A DNA stretch of 42,703 nucleotides, taken from positions 1 to 42,703 of the forward strand of contig QZJI01000075.1 in the NCBI GenBank assembly GCA_003599735.1, read 5' to 3'. The notes beneath the pieces are model-generated. The model was not told where the DNA came from and ran no database searches. It saw only the letters and a program-made list of their open reading frames with translations. The position numbers and the translations under genes were made by a program. Of this stretch, positions 17,706-25,114 are shown one piece after another. Within the stretch, counting starts at the first letter, position 1. Every line of letters starts with the position of its first letter. The DNA is from Dehalococcoidia bacterium (GTDB lineage Bacteria; Chloroflexota; Dehalococcoidia; UBA2979).

Positions 17706-18545
17706 TTACCGTCCGGGGACGATCAGCCCGCCGCTGCCTTCGTGGGCCGCAGGCATCGAGGATGGCCCGGCCGCTTCGGCCGCCTTTACCTGTTCCTCTG
17801 TCACGAACTCGGTGACGAAGATACGCTCGCGCACCACCAGCTCTGGCTCGTTTACCGCGATTCGCCACAGCTGCTGCATGAGCAATGGCTCGTCCCAAGC
17901 GCCAGGGAAACGCCGCCCTTCGATTGTCATCAGCGGCACCTCAGCGACACCCTTGATCGAGGCGAGCCGCGGGAATTCCGCGACTTCGATCACGGTCAGC
18001 CGGATGTTCTTGCTCTCCGCCGCAAACGCGCCGAGCAGGCGCAAGAGGTGGCCCGAATAGGCGTCGTATGGCGCCAGCAGGATCTCAATGTCCAGCGGGC
18101 GCGGAAGGGCCGTCAGCGCCGCCTTCGTCTCCGGCTGGAGCGGCGTCTCTGCGGAGAGGAACGTCATCACGTCGAGGAATGGCGGGAACAGGAGTCCGGA
18201 GATCAGGCCGCTCAGCCGCACCGACTTTCCACCGCCCCGCAGGACCGTTGTCGGCGCCAGGTGGATCGCCTCGCGCTGTGCGCGCTCCGCGAACTGGTCG
18301 AGGGCATACGGAGTGATCGTCAACGCCGGGTGCAGTGACGCTAGCTGTTTCATCGCGGAGAGCATCATCTCGGCATGCACCACGCCGTCCCGGTCGGGTA
18401 ACACGATCGTGTTGTCTGGACGCCACCAAACCTCAATTCCCACATGGCGTGAGATGCGCTCCGCGAGCCAGCGCGCGATTGCAAGCGACTCCTCGCGTCC
18501 GAGTGGACCCGCGTTCGGCGTGATGGCTGGCGGCTCGCCGGTCAC
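17706..18545 (-). CDS. Thioredoxin-fold protein, PDO-like, lacking the CxxC motif
   Basis: The pattern resembles the double thioredoxin fold of protein disulfide oxidoreductases: a first fold (about 20-125), the linker LQPETKAALTALPRPLDIEILLAP, and a second fold (about 145-250) ending with a cis-proline loop EVPLMT (Pro204). At the place of the usual TPTCPYCP the sequence is APYDAYSG, so the two redox cysteines are Asp161 and Ser164 and the protein cannot be a normal dithiol oxidoreductase. The 279-residue gene starts at GTG 18545, overlapping the phosphatidyltransferase stop (GTGA). An open frame runs further upstream but only as antisense-frame translation of that gene. It may be a structural or binding partner of the lipid enzymes encoded before it; this is a guess. 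Confidence 0.75.
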   Translation of the reverse strand: MTGEPPAITPNAGPLGREESLAIARWLAERISRHVGIEVWWRPDNTIVLPDRDGVVHAEMMLSAMKQLASLHPALTITPYALDQFAERAQREAIHLAPTTVLRGGGKSVRLSGLISGLLFPPFLDVMTFLSAETPLQPETKAALTALPRPLDIEILLAPYDAYSGHLLRLLGAFAAESKNIRLTVIEVAEFPRLASIKGVAEVPLMTIEGRRFPGAWDEPLLMQQLWRIAVNEPELVVRERIFVTEFVTEEQVKAAEAAGPSSMPAAHEGSGGLIVPGR

Positions 18546-19141
18546 CGGTCTTCTCTCCGTGCGTCTTCCGCGATCATCGAGCGCGATCCGATCCACAGCC
18601 GCTGGAACGCCGTCAGCACTGTCAATACGGCGAGCGCCCACAGCGCCGCGCGTGTGAACCCAAGGATCAACGCGACGCCCACGAGCACGACGCGCTCTGA
18701 CCGGGTGAACAGCCCGTCGCGTAGAGCGAGCCCTAGTCCTTCGGAGCGCGCCCGTACGTACGACACCATCAGCGAGCCGACAGTGGCCACGAACGCAAGC
18801 ATCGCCTGCTCGTCGCTCCCGGACTGCAGTGCGTGCCACAGCAACCCGCCGAGGACCGCCGCCTCTGAGAGCCGGTCGAGCGTGGAGTCGTACAACGCAC
18901 CGAACCGTGAGGCGCGGCCGGTCGCCCGCGCGAGCGCGCCGTCCAGCATGTCCAGCGCGCTGAAGAACAGCACAGCCACGCCTGCGAGCCACAGGTCGCC
19001 CCGCGCTGCCAGCCATGCCGCCAGCACGTTGCCCAGGAAGCCCGCGGTCGTGAGCATCGTCGGTGTGACCCGCGCGGCGGCCAGCCCTCGCACGATCGGG
19101 TCAAGGACGGCGGCGGGGGCGCGGCGCGGGAGGAGGATCAT
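18542..19141 (-). CDS. CDP-alcohol phosphatidyltransferase, probable phosphatidylinositol phosphate synthase
   Basis: This 199-residue membrane enzyme has the CDP-alcohol signature with Asp64, Asp67, Gly68, Arg72, Gly81, Asp85 and Asp89. Beyond that it resembles mycobacterial PgsA1: SYVRARSEGLGL (130-132), FTRSER (147-150) and FQRL (180-182) occupy the positions of PIP-synthase residues that bind the inositol phosphate group. The likely reaction is CDP-diacylglycerol plus inositol-1-phosphate to phosphatidylinositol phosphate plus CMP. The ino1 gene in the same cluster supports this over phosphatidylglycerol-phosphate synthesis. ATG 19141 overlaps the glycosyltransferase stop (ATGA). PGP synthase remains the alternative. 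Confidence 0.85.
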   Translation of the reverse strand: MILLPRRAPAAVLDPIVRGLAAARVTPTMLTTAGFLGNVLAAWLAARGDLWLAGVAVLFFSALDMLDGALARATGRASRFGALYDSTLDRLSEAAVLGGLLWHALQSGSDEQAMLAFVATVGSLMVSYVRARSEGLGLALRDGLFTRSERVVLVGVALILGFTRAALWALAVLTVLTAFQRLWIGSRSMIAEDARREDR

Positions 19142-20310
19142 TCGCGGGGCGCCAGACGGCGCTCGCGGGTGGATTCCATGCTGTCGCGCTGGTCCAGAAG
19201 TCGCTCGTAGTACGAAGCGACCTGTTGGCCCACGCGCGGCCAGGAAAACTCATCCACACGGATCCGCCCGCGTGCCGCCAGCCGTGCGCGCCGTTCAGGG
19301 TCGCGCGCCAGCGCCGTCAGCGCGTCCGCCAGTGCCATCGTGTCCATGGGGCGCACCAGGATTCCGTCCACGTCATGAGTGATGACGGAAGCGTACCCGT
19401 CAATGTTCGATGCTACGATTGGTACCCCTGCTGCCATCGCCTCCAGTAGCACGTACCCCTGCGACTCGTTCCCCAGCGCGGGCGAGCAGAAGATCTGCGC
19501 CGTGCGGTGGTATCGAGGCAATTTGTCGTACGGCTGCTCCGGCACGAAGATCACGCCTCGCTGACCGCTGCGCTCCACCATCGCCTCGTACCGTCGGCGC
19601 GCCCGCGAGTCCGGCCCGACCACGATCAGTCGCGTGTCCGGAAGGCGTGCGTTCACGACACCAAAGGCGCGGAGCAGCGTCCCCAGCCCTTTCCGCTTCT
19701 CCGCGCGGCCGACGTACAGAATGTTCGCGGTGCCCTCAAAGGCCGCAATCGGTTCGTGGCGCGGGTCTGACCAGTGCTCCACATCGATGCCGTTCGAGAT
19801 GATGTTGTAGAAGCCCGGAAAGTAGCGGCCCACGTACTGAGCCGCTGGCGGCGACACTGCGATCTTCCCGTCGATCTCCCGAAACCACCGTTTCAGCAGC
19901 CGCCGGCCGTATCCATACAGCCGGTTGCCGCCGTCCTTCCGAGCATGGAACGTCCCAACGTTGACCACGCGAGGGTTCGCCGCCCGTGAGTGGCGTAACA
20001 CCTGAATCGGCAACACCGGCATCAGCGGTTCATGCACATGCACTACATCGAACTGCTGCTTCGCCAAGAGGGCATGTACGCGCGCGCCAATGCGAGGGTT
20101 TACCGGGATACGGACCACCGATCCGGACGCGGCCACGGGGATCGGCCGTCCGATGATGTGGACCAGCGGGTCGTCCACCTTGCGCGAGGCGGGCGCAATC
20201 ACGTGGACCTCATGTCCGCGCGCGCGCAACTCGTGGCCGAGGTGCGCCACATGGCTGTTCACCCCGCCCGGCGTGTGCCAGTCGTACGGCGAGACAAGCG
20301 CGATCTTCAT
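19138..20310 (-). CDS. GT4-family glycosyltransferase, PimA-like (phosphatidylinositol mannosyltransferase)
   Basis: This is a 390-residue GT-B enzyme. The N-terminus KIALVSPYDWHTPGGVNSHV matches PimA, including the GGV loop that contacts inositol phosphate. Other PimA-like points are VHVHEP (91-95), TFHAR (His122), ISNGID, the donor-site GRAEKRKG (Arg202, Lys207) and the ESQGYVLLE EX7E pair (Glu282, Glu290). PimA transfers the first mannose from GDP-mannose to phosphatidylinositol at the inner membrane face. The location directly before a PgsA1-like gene repeats the mycobacterial pimA neighbourhood. ATG 20310 overlaps the PHP gene stop (ATGA); the longer upstream frame is not conserved sequence. 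Sugar and acceptor are inferred. Confidence 0.87.
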   Translation of the reverse strand: MKIALVSPYDWHTPGGVNSHVAHLGHELRARGHEVHVIAPASRKVDDPLVHIIGRPIPVAASGSVVRIPVNPRIGARVHALLAKQQFDVVHVHEPLMPVLPIQVLRHSRAANPRVVNVGTFHARKDGGNRLYGYGRRLLKRWFREIDGKIAVSPPAAQYVGRYFPGFYNIISNGIDVEHWSDPRHEPIAAFEGTANILYVGRAEKRKGLGTLLRAFGVVNARLPDTRLIVVGPDSRARRRYEAMVERSGQRGVIFVPEQPYDKLPRYHRTAQIFCSPALGNESQGYVLLEAMAAGVPIVASNIDGYASVITHDVDGILVRPMDTMALADALTALARDPERRARLAARGRIRVDEFSWPRVGQQVASYYERLLDQRDSMESTRERRLAPRE

Positions 20311-21104
20311 GGTCGTGGCCGGATCCGTTCGCCCATACGTCCCACGAACCGCCCGAGAGGTGGCCCCAGCACCTTCTTCGGCGTGACGGAGAGGCCACGC
20401 ACCTGCTGGAGGGCGATGCGGGTGGCGCCGATCTGCCGCAGCGGCATGCCCGCCCCTCGCCGTCCCGACGTCGCGCGGCTGAGGATCGCCAGCCGCAAGT
20501 CTTCCGAGGTGCGGCCGGGGAAGAGCGTATAGGCCCCCCCTACTGCTTCCGCGAAGTGTGCGTCGCTCCCACCCGTCTCGGCCAGCCCCCACCGGGCACG
20601 ATTCGCCTCGACCGCACGGATGCCGGTGTCCCAGCCCGCTGAGGTCGGGTTGGCGATCTCGATGCCGTCCGGGTGCGTCGCGGTGTCCGCGATCGCGAGG
20701 ACGCGCTCCAGCGTGCGCCGGCCGATCGAGCGAGTCAGCAGAGAGAAGGGGTGCGGGACGACGGCGAGCCCACCCTGCTCATGGATCGCCGCGGTGGTCG
20801 CTTCCAGCGAGCGGAACGAACGGACGGGTGCCTCCACCCATAACGCCAGCAGGTGACCGTGCAGTGTGGTCACCTCGATCCCGGTGACGAGGTCGAAGTG
20901 GTAGGGCGCACGCGCATGCACGTCGCGCGCTTCCAGCGCCCCGCCGATGTCGTCGTGGTCAGTGACGGCGATGACGTCGAGCTCGCCCAGCACTTCGACT
21001 CGCTCGAAGATCGCACGGGCGTCCTCCATACCATCACCGTAGGCGGTATGGACTTGCAGGTCAGCGCGTCCGAAACGGCGGGGGACAGCGGTGTGGTCGG
21101 GCAT
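20307..21104 (-). CDS. PHP-domain metal-dependent phosphoesterase
   Basis: This 265-residue soluble protein has the PHP (polymerase and histidinol phosphatase) core: DLQVHTAYGDG (15-25), TDHD (48-51), GIEVTT with Glu77, PHPF (117-120) and GGSDAH (178-183). The first metal His, normally in DLHxH, is Gln17. Most other metal ligands are present, so a di- or trinuclear site is still plausible. Relatives include phosphatases and the RNase AM/TrpH group. The gene lies between the acyltransferase genes and the PimA-like gene, five bases after the former and overlapping the latter. This makes dephosphorylation of a lipid intermediate such as PI-phosphate a reasonable but untested role. Confidence 0.88.
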   Translation of the reverse strand: MPDHTAVPRRFGRADLQVHTAYGDGMEDARAIFERVEVLGELDVIAVTDHDDIGGALEARDVHARAPYHFDLVTGIEVTTLHGHLLALWVEAPVRSFRSLEATTAAIHEQGGLAVVPHPFSLLTRSIGRRTLERVLAIADTATHPDGIEIANPTSAGWDTGIRAVEANRARWGLAETGGSDAHFAEAVGGAYTLFPGRTSEDLRLAILSRATSGRRGAGMPLRQIGATRIALQQVRGLSVTPKKVLGPPLGRFVGRMGERIRPRP

Positions 21105-21109
21105 CAGCG

Positions 21110-21979
21110 CTATTGTAGCCCGCGCCAGATGGGCGCCAGCGCAAACCACTGGCCGGGTGTGCGCATGATCGCCCGTTCGAGTGCGTCGATGTAGGCGTAC
21201 TGCGCCGCCTCCAGGTCGTTCTGACGGTCGCCGCTTGCCTTGGGCAGCGCGATCCGTTCCACCACGGCGGCGTACCGCCCCGGCCTGGTGCGCGTGACCC
21301 ATCCGGCGACGACGGCGGCGCCTGTGCGCAACGCCATCTCCATCATCCCGTCCGGCATCGCCGCCCGCTCTCCGAAGAAGACGTACGGCTTCCCGGTGCC
21401 GAGGACATCGCGGTCCGCCAGCCCGCCGAGGATCACCCCGCATCGGATCTGCGCCAGCGCCGCCCGGAGCCCAGCGGTGTTCGGCTCCAACATTTGCGCG
21501 CCTCCCCGCTTCCGCGTTGATTCGATGAGCGCATGCACGCGTGGATCTCCCAAGGGCTCGACGAAGATCGCGGCGGGCAGTCCGAGGTACGGGAGCAGGG
21601 TCGCGAATACCTCTGGGTTCCCAAGGTGCGCCGAGAGGAGCACTACGCCCCGCCCGGCGTCATACGCCTCGAATAGTGTTTCGAGGCCCTCCACGGAGTC
21701 GAGGCATGCGAAAGTCTGCTCCGGAGTCATCCGGGGGGCGCGCGCGAGGTCGACCCAATACCACGCCGCTGTCCGGACGCAATCACGCGCGCGCGCTTCG
21801 ACCGTGGCGCGTGAGGCGCTGGTCCCTAGGGCGTGGCGCATGTGGTCGGTCGTCGTTTCTCGGAGCTGGCGGGAGGTGTACCACGACAGGCCGCCGGCCA
21901 GCCACACCAGCGGCGCGATCACGCGCAGCGGGACGCACGGCAGCACGAGCATCAGCGTCCGCAACAGCCAGTAGGGCAT
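21110..21979 (-). CDS. LpxL/HtrB-family lysophospholipid-type acyltransferase (second copy)
   Basis: This 289-residue protein of the lipid A acyltransferase family has a hydrophobic N-terminus (about 5-34) for membrane attachment and the catalytic H-x4-acid motif as His118 to Glu123 in SAHLGNPE. PatA, the mycobacterial family member, palmitoylates the mannose of phosphatidylinositol mannosides. No other lipid A genes are present, so an inositol or mannolipid acceptor fits better than lipid A. The Glu (rather than Asp) and the NPE sequence set it apart from its neighbour, suggesting a different acceptor or position. ATG 21979 overlaps the neighbour's stop (TGATG). Confidence 0.86.
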   Translation of the reverse strand: MPYWLLRTLMLVLPCVPLRVIAPLVWLAGGLSWYTSRQLRETTTDHMRHALGTSASRATVEARARDCVRTAAWYWVDLARAPRMTPEQTFACLDSVEGLETLFEAYDAGRGVVLLSAHLGNPEVFATLLPYLGLPAAIFVEPLGDPRVHALIESTRKRGGAQMLEPNTAGLRAALAQIRCGVILGGLADRDVLGTGKPYVFFGERAAMPDGMMEMALRTGAAVVAGWVTRTRPGRYAAVVERIALPKASGDRQNDLEAAQYAYIDALERAIMRTPGQWFALAPIWRGLQ

Positions 21980-22863
21980 CAGGGGCTAGGGTGCACCGCG
22001 CGCGCCAGGTCGGCGATCCAGAGGCTGCGGAAGATGTACCACTGCGAGGGGTCGCGGCGGACGAACTGCTCCAGTTGTCGAAAGACCGCCTGCGTTAGGC
22101 TGCGCACGTCCGCCTCCTGGTCCCCGGTCGGTGTGAACGGCACTGGTGCGACATCCACCGTCACCGTGTCGCCCCAGGGGTCGACACGGGGCAACGTGGC
22201 TGCCATGACCGAGGAGCCGGCGCGGAGTGCGATCCGTGCGGGGCCGTCCGGCACGGCGATCCGCTCGCCGAAGAATTCCACCTCCACACCGTCCGAGGGC
22301 TGTGGGATGTCGATCAACACCGCGACCACATCGTTGCCACGCAGCGCGCGGAGGATGCCCGGGCCCATCCGTTCAGCGGCGATCACTTTCATGCCGAGGT
22401 GTTCGCGTGAATCGACCACTAAACGGTTCACTGGTCCGCTCTCGAAGGTGTCCGCGATGACCGAGATCGGGAACCCTTTCTGAGCGAGGATGGCCGCGCC
22501 CAGGTCCCAGTTCCCGAAATGCATCGTAATGAACACGATGCCATGGCCACGCCGCTCTGCCTGCAGCTCTGGCCACCCGTCCCACGCTACGCGTCGGTTG
22601 ACTTCGGCGGCGTCCGTGCGGAGGAACCGTAGGAAATCCACGAGGTAGACCAGGTAGTTCCCAAACGATCGCCGGGCCAGCCGTCGCGCCTCGCCCGTGT
22701 CGCCGTCGGTGACCCGTAGCATGTTGGCGATGCAACGTCGCCGTCCCCCCACCCACACGAGGTAGGCGAGCCAGCCCGCGCTTCTGGCCACGGCGTACGA
22801 GACCCGTAGCGGGATGGCGCGCGTGAGCCGCGCACCGAAGCGGAACGCCACGTACATCAGCAT
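21979..22863 (-). CDS. LpxL/HtrB-family acyltransferase, PatA-like (first copy)
   Basis: This 294-residue member of the lipid A biosynthesis acyltransferase family has H-x4-D as His115 to Asp120 in TMHFGNWD, close to the HSGNWD of mycobacterial PatA. An N-terminal hydrophobic segment (about 18-40, ending WVGGRRRC) would attach it to the inner membrane face. It would transfer an acyl group from acyl-CoA or acyl-ACP to a glycolipid; acylation of a PI-mannoside is inferred from the operon. It is the first gene of the operon acyltransferase-acyltransferase-PHP-PimA-PgsA-Trx. No strong ribosome site precedes ATG 22863; a second ATG lies two codons in. Confidence 0.87.
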   Translation of the reverse strand: MLMYVAFRFGARLTRAIPLRVSYAVARSAGWLAYLVWVGGRRRCIANMLRVTDGDTGEARRLARRSFGNYLVYLVDFLRFLRTDAAEVNRRVAWDGWPELQAERRGHGIVFITMHFGNWDLGAAILAQKGFPISVIADTFESGPVNRLVVDSREHLGMKVIAAERMGPGILRALRGNDVVAVLIDIPQPSDGVEVEFFGERIAVPDGPARIALRAGSSVMAATLPRVDPWGDTVTVDVAPVPFTPTGDQEADVRSLTQAVFRQLEQFVRRDPSQWYIFRSLWIADLARAVHPSP

Positions 22864-23031: not shown

Positions 23032-24105
23032 CTACTCGCCGCGGATGAATGCTTCCACGCCGTCGCGGGCGTCCTCGTCCAGCATCTGGCGTGGGGGCGA
23101 CTTCATGAAGTACGCCGCCGCCGGGTAGATCGGCCCGCCGAGGCCGCGGTCCAGCCCCAGTTTGGCCGCGCGCACCGCGTCGATGACTACCCCCGCCGAG
23201 TTCGGCGAGTCCCAAACCTCGAGCTTCAATTCCACGTTCAGCGGGACATCCCCGAAAGTCGTGCCCTCGATGCGGATGTGGCACCACTTCCGGTCGAGGA
23301 GCCAAGGTACGTAATCGGACGGGCCGACGTGGACATCCGCCGCCGGCAGTTCGTATGCAATCTGCGATGTGACCGCGGAGGTCTTCGAAATTTTCTTGGA
23401 CTCGAGGCGCTCACGCTCCAGCATGTTCATGAAATCGGTATTACCGCCGAAGTTCAACTGGTACGTGCGGTCGATACGCACACCACGGTCCTGGAACAAT
23501 CGCACCAGGTTCCGGTGGACGATTGTGGCGCCGACCTGCGACTTGATGTCGTCGCCGATGATCGGGAGCCCCCTCTCCCTGAACCGGTCGGCCCAGTACG
23601 GCTCCTTCGCGATGAACACCGGGATGCAGTTGATGAAGGCGCAGCCCGCCTGCAGCACCTGCTCTACGTACCACTTCGTCGCCTCTTCCGAGCCGACCGG
23701 CAGGTAGTTGATGACGACGTGGGTGTTCGTTTCCTTCAGAATCTTCACGATGTCCGCGGTCTGCCCCGGCGCCTTCGTGATCACCTGCGAGAGGTACTTG
23801 CCGATGCCGTCGTGCGTCATCCCACGCTGGACGGTGATGCCAGAGGAGGGGACATCGGTGAATTTCAGAGTGTTGTTTTGCCCGGAGAAAATCGCCTCGG
23901 ACAGATCCTTGCCCACCTTCTCCACGTCCACGTCGAACGCGGCGGTGAAGTTGATATCGCGGATGTGGTAGCCGCCCAGGACCGGGTGCATCAGCCCCGG
24001 GATCTCGTCACCAGACTCGACGTTCTTGTAGTACTCCACGCCCTGGACCAGGGAGGAGGCGCAGTTTCCGACGCCGATGATGGCGACGTTGATCTTCTCG
24101 CTCAC
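23032..24105 (-). CDS. ino1: Inositol-3-phosphate synthase (actinobacterial type)
   Basis: This enzyme converts glucose-6-phosphate to 1L-myo-inositol-1-phosphate using bound NAD. The 357-residue sequence follows mycobacterial Ino1 closely: [20 protein letters not shown] (NAD loop), [43 protein letters not shown] (catalytic lysines) and [19 protein letters not shown]. The start is set at GTG 24105, where homology begins, with AAAGG about eight bases upstream. An in-frame ATG at 24177 would add 24 unmatched residues running into the lysR promoter region. Its product feeds the PgsA1-like enzyme of the neighbouring operon. It is divergent from a LysR regulator, which may control it. Confidence 0.95.
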
Positions 24106-24223
24106 AGTAGTGGCCTTTCGTGCCGGCGCCGGTGATGACGGTGCGCGGCCTACGAAGTCAGCGTGCACCTCTATCATTCATCCGTCCAGTCGAAAGATAC
24201 GATATAATCCATAAGAGATATAG
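24106..24223. promoter_or_regulatory. Divergent ino1/lysR promoter region with AT-rich island
   Basis: Bases 24191-24223 are strikingly AT-rich for this window. On the plus strand TATAAT (24203-24208) is a perfect -10 box, 15 bases before the lysR ATG, so the transcript would start near 24215 with a leader of about nine bases. No good -35 is seen. Two similar words, GATACGATATA and ATAAGAGATATA, form an imperfect repeat that could be a regulator site. The ino1 promoter must also lie here or overlap it. Confidence 0.5.
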
Positions 24224-25114
24224 ATGGAAGAAGACTCACCACTCCCCCTGAATCTTCACCTCCATCACCTCGCCTACCTGCGCGAGGTGGAGCGCAGCGG
24301 CACGTTCACCACGGCGGCACGCCGCCTGCATATCTCTCAGTCAGCACTCTCCCAGGCGCTCGCCGAGTTCGAGCGCCGCCTCGGCGTTCCGCTCTTCGAG
24401 CGAGATGGCCGCCGCCGCGCGCTGACCGAGGCGGGGCGGGAGGCAGCGCGCTTCGCTGCCGAAGTGCTGGGGCGCGCTACGGAGCTGCGGGCCTGGGTGG
24501 ACGCCCGGCGCGCTGGCGGTTCCGGTTCACTCGTCATCGGCATGATCGACGCGGCGTCGCTCTACGTGTTGCCGTCGGCCGTCGCCGCGTTCCGCGCCAG
24601 CCACCCCGGTGTGGAACTGCGTGTCGTGGTGGACACGACGGAGGCGCTGCTCGATCGCCTCCAGCGGTTCGAGGTCGACCTCGCGGTCGTCGTCGGCCCG
24701 GTGGCTTCCACCTTCCACGCGGTCGAGGTCGCTCGCGAACCATTGCGGCTCTATGGCCCGCCCGGAGAGGCAGTGCCAGAGCCAGATTCCGAGTGGATCC
24801 TATATCCAGGGGGATCCCACACGCGAGCTGTGATTGACGCCGCGCTGGCCGCGAAGAGGATCCTTCCGCGGGTCATGCTGGAGTCCAGCAACCCCCAAGT
24901 GCTGCGACAACTCGTCGCTCTGGGTTTCGGGTGGAGCGTGCTGCCCGAACGGGTCGCGGAGGATGGGCAACCGCCGCTGCGGCCGTCGGGCGAAGTGCTG
25001 GGGGAGCGCACGTTGCTCGGAGTGAGGCGACCGGGCGCCCCGCCGGACGCGCGTGCGGAGGCATTCCTGACGCTCGCGGTCGCGGCCGGGTCAGCCGCTC
25101 GGGGTGACGTCTAG
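24224..25114 (+). CDS. LysR-family transcriptional regulator
   Basis: This 296-residue LTTR has the N-terminal winged helix-turn-helix at about 12-72 (LAYLREVERSGTFTTAARRL, SQSALSQALAEFERRLG, PLFERDGRRRALTEAG) and a periplasmic-binding-protein-like effector domain at about 95-290. The effector is unknown. LTTRs often regulate the divergent gene, here ino1, which would place inositol synthesis under metabolite control. The short predicted leader (about nine bases after a TATAAT at 24203) suggests near-leaderless translation. Its TAG stop shares CTAG with the stop of the convergent small zinc-ribbon gene. Confidence 0.92.
   Translation: MEEDSPLPLNLHLHHLAYLREVERSGTFTTAARRLHISQSALSQALAEFERRLGVPLFERDGRRRALTEAGREAARFAAEVLGRATELRAWVDARRAGGSGSLVIGMIDAASLYVLPSAVAAFRASHPGVELRVVVDTTEALLDRLQRFEVDLAVVVGPVASTFHAVEVAREPLRLYGPPGEAVPEPDSEWILYPGGSHTRAVIDAALAAKRILPRVMLESSNPQVLRQLVALGFGWSVLPERVAEDGQPPLRPSGEVLGERTLLGVRRPGAPPDARAEAFLTLAVAAGSAARGDV

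Follow-up and report, generated by a model that had tools for sequence, protein, structure and literature searches.

A PHP-fold phosphoesterase gene in a Chloroflexota inositol-lipid operon: a candidate for a lineage-specific PI-phosphate phosphatase

The mycobacterial pathway has an acknowledged gap, the phosphatase that acts between PI-phosphate synthase (PIP synthase) and the mannosyltransferase PimA, and papers from 2019-2020 call the mycobacterial enzyme unidentified. The reaction has nevertheless been assigned in Bacteroides, on knockout and complementation evidence, to BT_1525, a member of the PgpA family (PMC9246714), whose gene clusters with those for a PIP synthase and an inositol-phosphate synthase; PIP-DAG builds up in a published B. 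thetaiotaomicron strain without BT_1525. The statement, in a sequence-only reading of the DNA described here, that the PI-phosphate phosphatase is not firmly assigned was thus too broad. The Chloroflexota operon that we describe resembles the mycobacterial pgsA1-patA-pimA pathway in its clustered genes and in its homologous PIP synthase, PatA-like and PimA-like enzymes, and in addition holds a gene for a PHP-family protein; we know of no PHP gene at the mycobacterial locus. The reaction proposed for this protein is that of BT_1525, but the two belong to unrelated families (BT_1525 to PF04608, which has no match in the PHP protein), and whereas BT_1525 is backed by genetics, the PHP protein is known from sequence and context. 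Searches of the available literature for Chloroflexota PI-mannosides, or for PHP proteins in this pathway, found nothing relevant.

The operon lies in a window of 42,703 nucleotides (the whole stretch of DNA that was analysed), from a 2.0-Mb draft genome of about 70% completeness in which PF04608 was not found and whose closest relatives with names are MAGs of the Chloroflexota/Dehalococcoidia. Its genes, in order and all on the (-) strand, are:

23032..24177, (-): ino1, inositol-3-phosphate synthase (TIGR03450 at 550 bits, cut-off 638, and PF01658)
21979..22863, (-): LPLAT1, PatA-like acyltransferase (best PDB matches PatA 5oce/5f2t, E 2e-20)
21110..21979, (-): LPLAT2, PatA-like acyltransferase (PF03279; the best NCBIfam model is phosphatidylinositol mannoside acyltransferase, below its cut-off)
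20307..21104, (-): predicted PHP-fold metallo-phosphoesterase, 265 aa (ligand positions Q17, usually H, then H19, D24, H50, E77, H84, H118, D181 and H183; basic C-terminal helix 227-261)
19138..20310, (-): PimA-like GT4 mannosyltransferase (best PDB matches PimA, E 8e-51 and 9e-51; the next other glycosyltransferase at 3.5e-21)
18542..19141, (-): PIP synthase, a PgsA1-like CDP-alcohol phosphotransferase (NF045883 at 146.5 bits, cut-off 170; Mtb PgsA1 structure 6h53, E 2.7e-25)
17706..18446, (-), start codon provisional: glutaredoxin/PDO-like protein at the operon end (TIGR02187 at 65.6 bits, below cut-off)

The position of the glutaredoxin/PDO-like gene is conserved in the family, as is a divergent LysR-type gene (24224-25114) beside ino1.

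Judged by sequence, every step of this operon other than that of the PHP protein probably has an assignment. The metal motif of the PIP synthase is intact, and residue mapping finds R94, S132, R137, R152, R155 and R195 of the Mtb PgsA1 pocket identical, with arginine for K135; since these inositol-phosphate pocket residues are kept, the enzyme should yield PI-phosphate, on which a phosphatase would then have to act. Ino1 makes inositol-3-phosphate. In the pathway that we propose, the PIP synthase, with its conserved residues, would join the inositol-3-phosphate from Ino1 to CDP-diacylglycerol, giving PI-phosphate, from which the PHP protein, a cytosolic, metal-dependent phosphomonoesterase, would (we infer) remove the phosphate to leave PI; the PimA-like enzyme would then add mannose and the PatA-like enzymes would acylate the product. 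Other enzymes would take the place of the PHP protein where it is absent. This role, as a lineage-specific PI-phosphate phosphatase in the operon's inositol-lipid pathway, is in our view the best single explanation of the gene, with a rough probability of 0.48; the gene is a good candidate, though an unproven one. The gap thereby gains a specific candidate gene, for a soluble PHP enzyme that is a fixture of the equivalent operon in Chloroflexota; if the role is true, the step would have been solved in a second way.

The PHP gene begins 5 nt beyond the stop of LPLAT2, and its own stop shares the letters ATGA with the start of the GT4 gene, a 4-nt overlap (20307-20310), so that its reported position directly before, and overlapping, the PimA-like gene is correct. 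The protein scores above the cut-off for Pfam PHP_C (PF13263; 44.9 bits against 21.3) and below that for Pfam PHP (PF02811; 17.9 against 26.4). An AlphaFold2 model (pLDDT 89.9, pTM 0.85) matches PHP structures in Foldseek with probability 1.0, the best being RNase AM and TM0559 (E 2e-11 to 7ug9), and the protein is accordingly modelled as having the PHP fold. Eight of its nine metal-ligand positions are kept, the first His of the motif being Gln17 (DLQVH), just as the sequence-only reading had it.

A plain PF02811 search of the host's own genome overlooked the gene, because of its score below the cut-off, and an alignment profile was used instead. The survey of the Chloroflexota covered 116 distinct PHP relatives. 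The conservation of their neighbourhood is far beyond chance: 99 of the 116 stand in a lipid-gene context. The first gene downstream is the PimA-like GT4 gene in 87 (median gap 12 nt, 73 of them within 50 nt) and the PIP synthase gene in nine, while upstream an LPLAT gene is found in 80 and ino1 in six. Fusions of PHP to neighbouring genes were not found; nothing in the long upstream open frames can be recognised as neighbour sequence, and they have the look of read-through in GC-rich DNA.

Two rearrangements bear on the place of the proposed reaction. Eight genomes of one clade (L227-L232, L234 and L237) have PHP followed directly by PIP synthase, with GT4, LPLAT and ino1 absent within about 5 kb of PHP (less on one side at contig ends). 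This clade sits, with 99% support, inside a group to which full-operon relatives also belong, and as one clade it represents one event. At a further locus (L161, genome G103) PHP likewise stays with PIP synthase and the mannosyltransferase has gone from the site. Conversely, in the f16 genomes and G473 PHP stays with GT4 and the PIP synthase gene is elsewhere. Both rearrangements would be expected if the enzyme took the step after PIP synthase and before PimA, and the surveyed loci show PHP linked to the PIP synthase gene, as a PI-phosphate phosphatase should be. A caution is that the conserved block of the eight-genome clade also includes large downstream NYN-domain proteins and, in most, an ArsR-like regulator upstream.

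Co-occurrence limits the claim. In the class set of 216 genomes (the window's own and others with a completeness of 80% or more), PIP synthase occurs in 212 and a PHP orthologue, separated from paralogues by a clean score gap, in 108, so PHP is far from being present wherever PIP synthase is; no association between the two was detected, PIP synthase being found in 106 of 108 genomes both with and without PHP. Operons of ino1, GT4 and PIP synthase lacking PHP occur in many families, and on the GT4 tree nine changes of PHP state are needed, at least seven of them forced by well-supported branches. PHP instead tracks the PF03279 acyltransferases, which occur in 126 of the genomes: counts for both, PHP only, acyltransferase only and neither are 103, 5, 23 and 85 by genome (odds ratio 76), and 25, 2, 9 and 35 by family (p 2e-9). 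Counting by family lessens the effect of shared ancestry without abolishing it, and some absences will be false because the genomes are drafts. In one genome (G028) PHP has gone from the operon (L130, on contig C5), and an orthologue is found on another contig (L039, on C86). The proposal of the sequence-only reading that this PHP protein is a candidate PI-phosphate phosphatase, to be checked by its co-occurrence with PgsA1- and PimA-like genes, is therefore partly supported, by lipid-gene conservation across the phylum and by the likely assignments of the other steps, but not by presence with PIP synthase, as half of the genomes with that enzyme have no orthologue.

By this pattern the PHP protein is not an obligatory PI-phosphate phosphatase and cannot be the general one; it would be either lineage-specific or part of the mannoside branch. 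In the latter case, the main rival to our proposal, it would hydrolyse or trim an inositol lipid that carries mannose or acyl groups, or a phosphorylated by-product of such a lipid, and PI-phosphate would be dephosphorylated by an enzyme encoded elsewhere. The strong co-occurrence with PatA-like acyltransferases, with none for PIP synthase, is what such an enzyme would show; of its neighbours, PHP is linked most tightly to the PimA-like gene; and in three f1/g8 genomes PHP, GT4 and both LPLATs are missing from the site together while ino1 and PIP synthase stay (the reduced loci L089, L090 and L091, of G025, G034 and G011, have the order ino1-PIPS-TRX). We nonetheless consider a mannoside-branch role doubtful. 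In the eight-genome clade PHP is still next to PIP synthase, GT4 and LPLAT being absent within about 5 kb, and five class genomes have PHP but no PF03279 gene at all, so that a purely acylation-related role is less likely; three of these five (L172-L174) have the order ino1-PHP-GT4-PIPS. Moreover, we know of no phosphomonoester step in the PI-mannoside branch.

A less probable idea, which we regard as unlikely, is that the PHP protein is a soluble small-molecule phosphoesterase, acting on inositol monophosphate, mannose phosphate or nucleotides, and supports flux through the pathway. In its favour, the neighbours in sequence and structure are the pAp (nucleoside-bisphosphate) phosphatase (2yb1), RNase AM (7ug9, 9etk) and CehA/McbA, which, like TM0559 (2anu), share the PHP fold and ligand pattern. 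The PHP protein differs from this group in Gln17, in its basic C-terminal helix and in its lipid operon context, and has at most 27% identity to the solved structures. All NCBIfam PHP models score far under their curated cut-offs (52.7 bits against 80 for the CehA/McbA metallohydrolase model NF038032; 45.3 and 35.1 against 375 and 400 for the RNase RNM and nucleoside-bisphosphate phosphatase models), so that no known function was transferred to it. In pairwise alignments the ligand motifs are about 15 residues apart, against about 100 in 2yb1, 9etk and 7ug9; the large insert of RNase AM and 2yb1, which in the pAp phosphatase is part of the nucleotide site, is absent, and this makes nucleotides or RNA ends less likely as the substrate. 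The linkage of the gene, too, is specific to lipid genes. Of the two findings that the sequence-only reading held would count against its proposal, a gene not conserved with the lipid genes is contradicted by the survey, and an enzyme of nucleotides or RNA ends appears less plausible from the sequence comparisons.

All 41 relatives that were aligned have a basic C-terminal tail, with a net charge of +5 to +10 over the last 40 residues. An amphipathic helix there gave a weak signal (best p about 0.02 in a window scan), and we describe the tail as basic only.

That the PHP protein is a catalytically impaired or regulatory relative, as the replacement of the first His ligand by Gln in 41 of the 116 relatives might suggest, is highly improbable, because position 17 (His in 74) has switched between the two residues at least six times on a tree from which that column was left out, both forms are found in the same operon and the remaining ligand positions are conserved in 115-116 of the 116, the one exception (L098) looking frameshifted; Gln17 is thus no sign of a dead enzyme.

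The strong form of the proposal, that the PHP protein is the missing PI-phosphate phosphatase, is not supported, because a PgpA-family enzyme does the step in Bacteroides and half of the class is without PHP. The survey shows that many related genomes must have another solution to this step, and so sets a bound on how universal any one enzyme can be claimed to be. We suggest tentatively, at somewhat less than even odds, that at least two unrelated phosphatases have been recruited to PI-phosphate, of the PgpA family in Bacteroides and PHP in Chloroflexota, with a third in most of the class members that lack PHP.

A replacement phosphatase was not found in the PHP-less genomes when PgpA and PRK06361 were considered across the 216 class genomes. 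PgpA was rejected as a general replacement: it is absent from 209 and present in seven, all of one family (the f14 genomes G048, G078, G121, G198, G205, G224 and G234) and all without the operon PHP; in G048 the PIP synthase and PgpA genes are on separate contigs. PRK06361, a second and unrelated PHP protein that is histidinol-phosphatase-like, was not adopted, its association with PHP being negative by genome (p 0.003) and absent by family. It is present in 69 of the 216 genomes, and its gene is often divergent beside ino1, in PHP-less and in some PHP-bearing genomes (L092:2123, L096:3657-4337, L097:3842-4507, L119:6387, L120:1030 and other class loci).
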